NCBI RefSeq assembly: GCF_014230465.1
Contig: NZ_JAAXCY010000001.1
Span: forward strand, 186,001 to 250,000
DNA from: Pseudomonas cremoris
GTDB lineage: Bacteria; Pseudomonadota; Gammaproteobacteria; Pseudomonadales; Pseudomonadaceae
DNA: 64,000 nucleotides
Reading direction: 5' to 3'
Shown here: piece by piece, positions 30,898 through 62,720 of the stretch
Layout: each line of letters begins with the position of its first letter
Numbering within the stretch: the stretch's first letter is position 1
Notes under the pieces: model-generated
What the model was told of the DNA's origin: nothing
Seen by the model: the letters and a program-made list of their open reading frames with translations, nothing else
Databases searched by the model: none
Program-made: the position numbers and the translations under genes

Positions 30898-30993
30898 AAC
30901 AGGAAAGTCCTAAGCGGCCGTGCCTTGCTCCTTTGCCTACGCTTGCGTCAGAATCCGCCGGCTTGTGCGCTTGAGTGAGCGTCTCTAAGGTTG

Positions 30994-31192
30994 CCCGGTC
31001 GCTGAAAACTCAGTGATCGGGTTTAGTAGCCCTTGGTTGAATTACGTTTAGTGCACAAGCTTCATCAATCAGACATTCCTGTCTGTGCTTGATGGCGGCT
31101 GTGCGCAGGGCACCTTCGGGTGCGCCGGCTTTGCGTAATTCCCCGGTCTACTAACCTGCGTACAGCTGCCACCCTTTCGTTTAGTAGCGAAA
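30994..31192 (+). ncRNA. Structured leader RNA or small RNA upstream of DUF6124-type gene
   Basis: Folding by eye gives nested stems. A 12-pair hairpin at 30994-31021 (CCCGGTCGCTGA / TCAGTGATCGGG, loop AAAC) comes first. TTAGTAG 31023-31029 pairs with CTACTAA 31148-31154, enclosing GAATTACG 31039-46 with CGTAATTC 31134-41. Inside these, GCACA 31053-57 pairs with TGTGC 31100-104 around CATCAA/TTGATG and CAGACA/TGTCTG, and a UUCG-capped hairpin lies at 31110-31123. A last hairpin (31175-31192) shows TTTAGTAG in its loop, able to compete for CTACTAA. Such a layout suggests a regulatory RNA or element; class not recognised. Confidence 0.6.
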
Positions 31193-31222
31193 CGGTGTCA
31201 GCCCAACTCAGGAATTGCGCTC

Positions 31223-31540
31223 ATGTTCAAAGTCACGCCGAATCCTCCAAACCAACCAGACCTGAAGCTTAATCAGGCTGCGCATCGTGCGATTGATCGC
31301 TACCTCAATTCAGAAACCGCCCCACCGTTGCCACTCCCGAGTTTGTTCAGCGTTGCCGCTGACGTCAGCACTGAAACCCTCATCACCAACAGCTACGAAA
31401 CCTTTTCCTCGGTCACCGCGTTGTTACTGGACCTGTCGGAAGATTTGACGGGGAAGCAGCGCGATGTGGCGCTGGCGATTCATCAGTTGAGTGAGTTGGG
31501 GGTGTTGTTGATGGATAGGCTGATGGAGCGGGAGGCGTAA
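31223..31540 (+). CDS. DUF6124/DUF3077-type small protein (105 aa)
   Basis: This 105-residue protein begins MFKVTPNPPNQPDLKLNQAAHRAIDRYL and ends with a helical stretch (DVALAIHQLSELGVLLMDRLME). It resembles small Pseudomonas proteins of the DUF3077/DUF6124 group. Function is unknown. AGGA lies 12 bases before the ATG, and the gene is preceded by the structured RNA region at 30994-31192. That arrangement suggests either cis-control of this gene or an adjacent independent RNA. A GC-rich long hairpin follows its stop. Confidence 0.75.
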   Translation: MFKVTPNPPNQPDLKLNQAAHRAIDRYLNSETAPPLPLPSLFSVAADVSTETLITNSYETFSSVTALLLDLSEDLTGKQRDVALAIHQLSELGVLLMDRLMEREA

Positions 31541-31816: not shown

Positions 31817-32476
31817 TCAGCCACCCTTTCTTGGAGGCCCACGGAGAAATTTCTTTTTATTCTCACACCAGCGCCGGTAGGAAAACTTTACGTTAGTGCA
31901 GGCTTGAATTTTTCTCATGGCATCAATGATACCGTTACGATCCTTTATACCAACTTGTGAAATCTTATGATAAAGAAGGCTCCAGCCAATAAGAGCATCA
32001 TCCCAGTGCACAGTATCTCCTAGAATTGAAAATATGTAGGAAGGCATCTTAACTTTGGCGGATCGCCCTAATGCATGCTTTGCATGAATCGAAAGAGAGT
32101 TATCACCTGACCCACAAGCGGATATCGAAAGAGCAAGCTTTCCTTCATAACTGGAGTTTCCGAGCAGGGGCAGCAAGTTCTCTATCAGTTCATCCCATTT
32201 TACAACATCATTTCCGAATGCTACACACCCTGAATTCCCATGAGATGAAATATGTAGAAACAAAGGTAACGACGGGTATCTTTCGGCGTGACTCGAATCA
32301 GACGAGGCCAAATAATTAATTATTGATTTAAAGTCAGCTTTAGATTTGGCAAAAAACGAAATCGCTTGATGCCCCATAAGGTTACAAGTGGCCTTCAAAG
32401 CTTTTGCTTCGGATCGCCCATCGAATAGGTCAATTGGATTCGGACTTTCAATTATTACGATTCTGATTTTTGGCAC
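31817..32476 (-). CDS. Orphan protein with caspase/CHAT-like His-Cys dyad
   Basis: This 219-residue protein starts at GTG 32476, with GGAG about six bases upstream. It has the strand-loop pattern of clan CD peptidases: SLPLFLHISSHGNSGCVAFG (His79-Gly) and KLALSISACGSGDN (Cys121), with a WDEL segment between, as seen in CHAT/caspase-like domains. No other domain follows, and the end FLRGPPRKGG is low-complexity. The gene is A/T-rich relative to the neighbours, suggesting transfer. Clan CD proteases act in bacterial defence or cell suicide, but no effector partner is seen, so the role is open. Confidence 0.55.
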   Translation of the reverse strand: MPKIRIVIIESPNPIDLFDGRSEAKALKATCNLMGHQAISFFAKSKADFKSIINYLASSDSSHAERYPSLPLFLHISSHGNSGCVAFGNDVVKWDELIENLLPLLGNSSYEGKLALSISACGSGDNSLSIHAKHALGRSAKVKMPSYIFSILGDTVHWDDALIGWSLLYHKISQVGIKDRNGIIDAMRKIQACTNVKFSYRRWCENKKKFLRGPPRKGG

Positions 32477-62150: not shown

Positions 62151-62609
62151 TCATTGCTGACTGATAGGCGTCAGATCAGCGTTTGCCCCACCCTCAATCG
62201 CAATGCGTTTTGGCTTGGCTGCCTCCGGTACAACCCTGAGCAAATCGATGCTCAACAGGCCGTTGGAGAGCCGTGCGCCATGCACTTCGATGTGGTCGTC
62301 CAGGCGGAACGACAACCGGAATGCGCGCTGTGCGATCCCCTGATGCAGGTAGGTAATGCCTTCACTGTGTTCACGTTTGCCGCCGGCGACAGTCAACACG
62401 CCTTTTTCCACCTGGATGTCCAGGTCGTCCTCCACCAGGCCTGCGGCCGCGATGACGATGCGATAGTGGTCATCCCCGTGTTTCTCGACGTTATGGGGCG
62501 GATACGCGGTACCGGCCTCGTTGCGCAGCGCCGATTCGAACAGGTCGTTGAAACGGTCAAAGCCAACGGAGTGGCGGAACAGGGGTGCCAAGGAAGCAGT
62601 AGTAGCCAT
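62151..62609 (-). CDS. ibpA: Small heat-shock protein (Hsp20/IbpA)
   Basis: This 152-residue alpha-crystallin protein binds unfolding proteins and hands them to DnaK/ClpB. The alpha-crystallin domain lies at about 40-125, with YRIVIAAAGLVEDDLDIQVEKGVLTVAGGK and QRAFRLSFRLDDHIEVHGARLSNGLLSIDLLRVVPE. The start has AGGAG a short way upstream, and the leader may hold a heat-sensing hairpin, listed separately. It ends just before the shared terminator. Confidence 0.9.
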   Translation of the reverse strand: MATTASLAPLFRHSVGFDRFNDLFESALRNEAGTAYPPHNVEKHGDDHYRIVIAAAGLVEDDLDIQVEKGVLTVAGGKREHSEGITYLHQGIAQRAFRLSFRLDDHIEVHGARLSNGLLSIDLLRVVPEAAKPKRIAIEGGANADLTPISQQ

Positions 62610-62720
62610 AGCAAAATCTCCTGAGTGTTCTCCAAGTGATTTAACTCGCGACCCGGATTCGGCGTCGCGTATTCCCTAGGTAGGTTCAGGGGGAAAAAAT
62701 TCAAGATTCACCGAAAAATT
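62610..62720 (-). promoter_or_regulatory. Leader of ibpA, possible ROSE-like thermosensor and heat-shock promoter
   Basis: The minus-strand leader contains CGCGAC...GTCGCG pairing (hairpin about 62655-62676). Near the start codon the ribosome site CAGGAG is followed by TTTTGCT directly before ATG, resembling the TTGCT element of ROSE thermosensors, which normally pairs with the ribosome site. A GTGAA-N13-CCCCC pair at about 62689-62710 weakly resembles a sigma-32 promoter. Both are tentative. Confidence 0.4.

Follow-up and report, generated by a model that had tools for sequence, protein, structure and literature searches.

C4 RNAs in phages and bacterial chromosomes

C4 RNAs occur in Proteobacteria and phages according to the available part of PMC2864571. 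In the icd-ant system of the phages P1 and P7, the C4 antisense RNA is cut by RNase P and blocks translation, as described in the accessible sections of PMC5320573 and PMC8198154, and differences between the keys of P1 and P7 are stated to limit cross-reaction (PMC5320573, same sections). In Acinetobacter baumannii AB5075 the Group 1 RNAs comprise 21 chromosomal C4-like sRNAs with variable loops, which are transcribed and for which RNA-seq points to processing at GGW (PMC5320573); the accessible sections of that report assign no targets to them and tie them to no downstream coding gene.

The leader analysed here lies in a window of 64,000 nucleotides, which is the whole stretch of DNA under analysis. 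It resembles the P1/P7 system (RF01695, RF03163) in its fold, in the order of the targets and in the placement of b' on the ribosome-binding site. However, the module of the window is chromosomal, belongs to a type present in many copies per genome, and DUF6124 or DUF3077 genes replace icd and ant. In contrast to A. baumannii, a target can be proposed in Pseudomonas, namely the next gene, by means of its matched Shine-Dalgarno (SD) region and key. The fast-changing key is here the SD-pairing b', whereas PMC5320573 names, in its accessible sections, a' as the specificity loop.

In a literature search that covered mostly papers outside subscription, DUF6124 was not mentioned and DUF3077 was found in another connection. 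Titles and beginnings of abstracts on C4, alone or together with Pseudomonas and including few subscription papers, did not describe the present C4 set. The setting, a chromosomal many-copy module targeting an adjacent DUF6124 gene, therefore appears to be new, as do its scale and the target rule. We consider it quite probable that the leader and its gene form a chromosomal C4 antisense module in which, by analogy with P1 and P7, C4 cut from the leader would block the translation of DUF6124.

Anatomy of the leader

The leader and its gene comprise the following features; C4 positions were taken from the alignment with the RF01695 model.

30963..30991 (+), putative promoter: TTGTGC at 30963-30968, 17-bp spacer, TAAGGT at 30986-30991
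30985..31037 (+), c4-a1b1 target region (RF03163), 39.7 bits, E 9.8e-9 in the relaxed search
30993-31022 (+), AAAC-loop hairpin inside the c4-a1b1 region, 13 pairs in the MFE structure
31022..31029 (+), a1, TTTAGTAG, upstream target copy
31039..31046 (+), b1, GAATTACG, complement of the b' loop, with which it pairs in the MFE structure
inside 31056-31094 (+), long arm, present in the sequence
31088..31176 (+), C4 antisense RNA (RF01695), 78.4 bits over the whole model
31093-31109/31155-31171 (+), C4 stem P1
31094-31095 (+), GG in P1, where phage C4 is described as being cut by RNase P
31110-31123 (+), C4 hairpin P2, UUCG-capped
31129..31142 (+), b' loop in P3, the SD-pairing key, with the core CGTAATTC at 31134-31141
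31148..31154 (+), a', CTACTAA, complementary to TTTAGTAG at a1 and a2
31180..31187 (+), a2, TTTAGTAG, in the loop of the hairpin 31175-31192
31210..31220 (+), b2, AGGAATTGCGC, SD region of the DUF6124 gene
31223..31540 (+), DUF6124 gene with ATG at 31223, 105 aa, PF19619 at E 3e-25, presumed target

Judged by its predicted pairings, the C4 RNA at 31088-31176 has a copy of its own target on either side, in the order a1/b1, C4, a2/b2 and DUF6124 gene on the forward strand. The RF01695 match covers model positions 1-87 of 87 and exceeds the family cut-off of 45 bits. The c4-a1b1 match remains under its cut-off of 46.7 bits; among 80 named DUF6124 loci, RF03163 was detected above the cut-off upstream of C4 in 27. 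Counted by eye, an uninterrupted run of 10 pairs, including one G-U, joins the b' loop to 31211-31220, and the duplex is predicted at -17.8 kcal/mol. No promoter was found at 30963..30991 by a strict consensus scan; base counts over the 138 of 187 C4 copies with a leader hairpin usable as an anchor gave T in 91% at -35, and T, A and T in 75%, 88% and 82% at -12, -11 and -7, respectively.

The region 30990-31225 folds with an MFE of -107 kcal/mol compared to a mean of -72.9 kcal/mol (sd 4.6) for dinucleotide shuffles (z -7.4), and none of the 200 shuffles was as stable as the native sequence. All structural elements named in an earlier sequence-only reading of this DNA were recovered. The long arm lies within 31056-31094 and the UUCG-capped hairpin within 31108-31123, and the loop of the last hairpin (31175-31192) repeats TTTAGTAG; the AAAC-loop hairpin is present as described, with 13 pairs in the MFE structure instead of the 12 given there. 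The pairing of CTACTAA with the upstream TTTAGTAG, enclosing GAATTACG/CGTAATTC, recurs in the MFE structure as the pairing of a'/b' with a1/b1. The small downstream gene is indeed of the DUF6124 type, and a leader with an antisense RNA inside fits the suggested cis-regulatory element or small RNA. The proposed two-state switch, with CTACTAA pairing with either copy of TTTAGTAG, agrees with the a'/a1/a2 logic of C4, the two folds being of similar energy in many copies; the alternative pairings of the window leader are explained by the C4 anatomy. The covariation that the same reading had suggested looking for is present within the C4 stem and between C4 and its targets. Its description of the RNA as possibly novel has to be given up: it had named a match to an existing Rfam family as refuting, and the Rfam search returned RF01695, which accounts for the structure.

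Furthermore, a riboswitch or RNA thermometer of a known class was rejected for this locus. The Rfam search returned C4 alone here, and a relaxed search of 30900-31300 up to E 5, which added the weaker c4-a1b1 and isrK matches, yielded no riboswitch, thermometer or other cis-regulatory match, in line with the earlier remark that known riboswitch classes were not recognised. The isrK match (RF01394) over the window leader reached 22.5 bits and is under the cut-off of 50 bits; a plasmid of Pseudomonas aeruginosa carries isrK next to C4, and in Burkholderia the two are listed side by side (PMC4603805). An immunity region of the P1 type (C4-icd-ant) was also rejected since the presumed target is a DUF6124 gene adjoining a monooxygenase gene and phage and plasmid collections gave no DUF6124 match.

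Two features elsewhere in the window were recorded in passing. An ordinary ROSE_3 RNA thermometer (RF02523, 56.5 bits) at 62604-62671 (-) lies just before the ORF 62151-62609 (-), which resembles a small heat-shock protein, as named by reading its sequence. The ORF 31817-32476 (-) has a match to Peptidase_C13 (caspase-like) below the cut-off, with 19.8 of 22.8 bits.

Predicted two-state folding and proposed mechanism

The proposed mechanism starts from one promoter, from which the a1/b1 leader and C4 would be transcribed, followed by a2/b2 and the DUF6124 gene. As in the phages P1 and P7 and in Acinetobacter, RNase P presumably cuts C4 from this transcript, the expected product being an RNA of about 77 nt. 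By the same analogy, a' and b' of the free C4 would pair with a2 and b2 of the DUF6124 mRNA and stop translation. In the uncut transcript the folding suggests that a1/b1 can occupy a'/b', which would leave the SD free; DUF6124 would thus be read mainly when free C4 is scarce.

Folding was compared in the C4 copies of four genomes (G006, G050, G063 and G020, the order in which values for the four are given throughout). In the MFE structure of the full leader a'/b' pairs with a1/b1 in 96 and the C4 stem forms in 72 of 173 copies; 13 of the 186 copies were excluded because P1 could form too few pairs. Between the two folds the median gap is 1.9 kcal/mol, and in the window the self-paired fold is favoured by 8.3 kcal/mol. 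According to this folding model the leader architecture is bistable in many copies.

Distribution of C4 and its linkage to DUF6124 genes

The survey sample consisted of 115 relatives, 71 of which belong to the same genus, Pseudomonas, as judged from named proteins and loci. C4 was detected in 71 of the 115 relatives at E 0.01 (69 above the family cut-off) and in 66 of the 71 same-genus genomes, with a median of 12 copies and at least 34 copies in ten genomes. DUF6124 was found in 54 of the 115 relatives, every one of them of the same genus and C4-positive; the five same-genus genomes without C4 are also without DUF6124, and the copy numbers of both correlate (Spearman rho 0.88 over 71 genomes). 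Searches of single genomes gave 42, 55, 47 and 42 C4 matches in the four genomes, with 39, 52, 47 and 41 above the RF01695 cut-off.

Searching with the DUF6124 protein yielded 652 relatives at E 0.001, and 533 DUF6124 relatives were found in named genomes. Among the best 80 of these 533, a C4 above the cut-off is located just upstream on the same strand in 77, the loci without it being L298, L311 and L320. In G006 and G050, 71 of the 97 C4s lie within 600 nt before a DUF6124 or DUF3077 match among the matches listed, which for DUF6124 were 30 of 32 and 41 of 41, respectively. Inspected by eye, the other 26 precede a third family of about 90 aa (15), a Bro-N antirepressor-like gene (6) or nothing clear (5). 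A profile scan of two sequences of each type confirmed Bro-N, and the two third-family sequences were without Pfam match. Ten of the 71 listed DUF6124 matches in these genomes have no C4 inside 600 nt; two of the ten retain a c4-a1b1 below the cut-off (41.8 and 23.9 bits) and two adjoin a PrrF sRNA gene. From these sequence data we infer that Pseudomonas may have multiplied a phage device into many locks, placed mostly on DUF6124 and DUF3077 genes.

Orthologous DUF6124-like genes that have no C4 adjoin PrrF (RF00444, ~161 bits) at L567 (G050) and L568 (G006), two loci of ~1.6-2.2 kb. These genes are possibly non-C4 members with another partner.

The DUF6124 protein and other C4-linked families

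The predicted structure of the DUF6124 protein is a helical hairpin (mean pLDDT 78, pTM 0.53). A Foldseek search of this model against the PDB gave no match at E <=0.001 among 238 at E 10, and the ferritin-like matches were set aside as they seem to be generic helices. DUF6124 had no PADLOC, NCBIfam or PHROG match and no match in phage or plasmid collections. It aligns with a three-sequence alignment of the DUF3077 type (hhalign probability 77, E 2e-5); the third family of about 90 aa aligns with neither DUF6124 nor DUF3077, and a single superfamily for all C4-controlled proteins was therefore rejected. Moreover, in 135 of 176 ORFs detected downstream of the 186 C4s of the four genomes, the motif [ND]P[PS] lies within the first 14 residues; it also fronts some Bro-N and third-family proteins. 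It appears to be an N-terminal tag that proteins with no other relationship have in common.

On the 39.6-kb viral contig IMGVR_UViG_3300012251_000037 a DUF6124 gene is present in two distant parts (L325 and L326), broken near codon 17-19 behind an intact C4 and with inverted words at the edges. This arrangement looks like a phage inserted into a C4-DUF6124 module.

Predicted preference for the own target and predicted crosstalk

In a permutation test of own versus permuted C4-target pairing, own b':SD pairing beats permuted pairing in all four genomes (z -12.7, -14.4, -13.1 and -13.6), as does own a':a2 pairing (z -14.0, -15.5, -15.8 and -14.8). The signal is weaker for b':b1 (z -3.9 to -6.1), and a':a1 barely departs from permuted pairing (z -1.2 to -2.7). 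At the P1 positions, standard pairs occur in 87-100% of the 186 copies, and most of these positions show several pair types, figures biased towards pairing by the structure-model search that supplied the copies. The GG where RNase P is expected to cut is the same in every copy (186/186).

Almost every module carries a b' loop of its own, with 41 of 42, 55 of 55, 47 of 47 and 42 of 42 loops distinct within the four genomes when loops one base apart are counted as distinct. Between modules not grouped as orthologues, 10 identical b' loops were detected; in 9 of these cases the modules belong to different genomes. Scored by b' alone, the own C4 ranks first, outright or with a tie, for 7/42, 9/55, 13/47 and 13/42 SDs, and by a' alone for 20/42, 23/55, 24/47 and 25/42; both arms combined gave 8/39 and 10/52. 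As the own C4 is seldom best by b' alone, considerable crosstalk is predicted. When the window targets were compared with 97 foreign C4s, a better score was obtained from 1 of the 97 on the downstream and from 15 on the upstream target. The keys are, by predicted pairing, private in a statistical sense only.

Changes of the keys between species

Matching of the flanks gave 69 reciprocal-best module pairs from two species pairs (36 and 33), of which four were removed for low ORF or P1/P2 identity. In the 65 pairs analysed, median identity is 0.93 for the ORF, 0.96 for P1/P2 and 1.00 for a', compared to 0.67 for the b' loop and 0.70 for the SD region. The b' loop identity is <0.7 in 35 of these 65 orthologous modules; in the changed pairs the own b':SD duplex has a mean of -14.9 kcal/mol versus -10.5 kcal/mol when swapped with the orthologue. 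Own b':SD was stronger in 61 of 70 swap tests (p 3e-10), the other nine not favouring the own partner, and b':b1 tracks its own partner in 47 of 70 (p 4e-4).

The 59 pairs with usable ORFs have a median protein identity of 95% and a median dN/dS of 0.10; the ORFs are under purifying selection. Their b' loop is unchanged in 22 pairs and mostly replaced in the remainder. Its distance exceeds the synonymous distance in 32 of the 59 pairs (Wilcoxon p 0.044) and that of the SD region does so in 35 (p 0.009), so that the excess over neutral change is modest. Moreover, P1/P2 identity in the changed pairs has a median of 0.87 versus 0.96 across all 65, which allows for an exchange of whole leader cassettes. 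Cassette exchange could explain the key swaps as well as a stepwise co-change.

A similar pattern was observed in a set of 25 window-like loci, consisting of the window, L128 and 23 of the 80 named loci, which are relatives with partly proven orthology and include at least one paralogue as L266 and L268 share one assembly. Eight truly different b' loops occur in this set (nine were counted, the loop of L128 having been cut one base short); the own b':SD mean is -15.5 versus -9.7 kcal/mol when swapped, and 7 of the 9 loops are best on their own SD. L128 (G018) occupies the same site after the monooxygenase gene and has a different b' loop with a matching SD. Outside Pseudomonas, at 10 loci from five other genera, b' matches the SD after C4 in 9 of 9 complete C4s (by eye). 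Exceptions to the uniqueness of the keys were found in G086, where a b' stretch is common to L581 and L584 and its core to L583 and L585; the a' of these loci differ.

Compared to its counterpart in the window, the ORF of L128 is shorter by about 44 codons, which are missing after codon 8. Seven further relatives with another follower after the monooxygenase gene (L129-L135) have no DNA in common with the window beyond that gene, and thus no insertion boundary could be read.

Comparison of the copies and species demonstrates the predicted C4 fold, the two flanking targets, the complementarity of b' and SD and their matching changes. It is conceivable, if tentative, that the wholesale replacement of keys (b' loop, b1 and SD together) between species, with the guarded protein barely changed, reflects diversifying selection on recognition alleles that would avoid cross-silencing among sister copies or fend off incoming modules or phages; a phage immunity device might thereby have become a genome-wide self/non-self system of translation.

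Alternative explanations

The leader might act purely in cis, with a'/b' pairing intramolecularly with a1/b1 or a2/b2 and no need for free C4. The self-paired fold is the MFE structure of the window by 8.3 kcal/mol, and the upstream pairing of a'/b' in 96 of 173 copies is also in line with such a leader. However, the conservation of P1 pairing (87-100% of 186 copies), the C4 stem as the MFE structure in 72 of 173 copies and the invariant GG at the RNase P site speak against it, and the C4 of P1/P7 and, by RNA-seq, that of A. baumannii are separate processed RNAs in the accessible sections of PMC5320573. A purely cis-acting leader is hence improbable. A module resembling type I toxin-antitoxin systems, with a harmful DUF6124 protein and C4 as the antidote RNA, would account for the small ORF, the antisense RNA on its SD and the many paralogues with differing RNA matches. 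In Sib/Ibs, several paralogous pairs each have an antisense RNA on a small ORF, and the C4 modules are alike in having paralogous RNA keys on small ORFs. Unlike in families of this type, C4 shares strand and promoter with its target; furthermore, the DUF6124 model is a helical hairpin and not a membrane peptide, and PADLOC gave no match. We consider this explanation rather doubtful.

That chromosomal C4s act mainly in trans on incoming phages with C4-controlled antirepressors is an idea raised for Acinetobacter (PMC5320573, accessible sections), and C4 does serve phage immunity. Among 54 distinct IMG/VR pattern matches, 14 have a b' loop in common with the four genomes, but most of these are followed by small chromosomal genes of the same types, about five of the 54 are unlike C4, and 27 lie <1 kb from the end of the retrieved stretch, as bacterial flanks of prophages would. 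Since, in addition, the class of targets with the best match is the gene that follows C4 within its own module, a main role against phages seems quite improbable. A decaying prophage remnant without present function would agree with C4 being first known from phages, and with a few clearly degenerate copies, namely the five of 97 C4s in G006 and G050 that precede nothing clear by eye. The ORF dN/dS of 0.10, the matched key changes, the C4 upstream of 77 of the best 80 of 533 DUF6124 genes and the absence of DUF6124 from phage and plasmid collections make this the least credible explanation, and we regard it as highly improbable.

Significance

With the chromosomal C4 module as the preferred reading, chromosomal C4 RNAs gain a simple and testable target, the adjoining gene, and DUF6124 and DUF3077, two families of unknown function, gain a common mode of control. 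Each cell would harbour natural antisense/SD pairs by the dozen, with coordinated swaps as their way of changing. The C4 set may offer a ready-made model of RNA specificity, of crosstalk and of how new regulator-target pairs arise.
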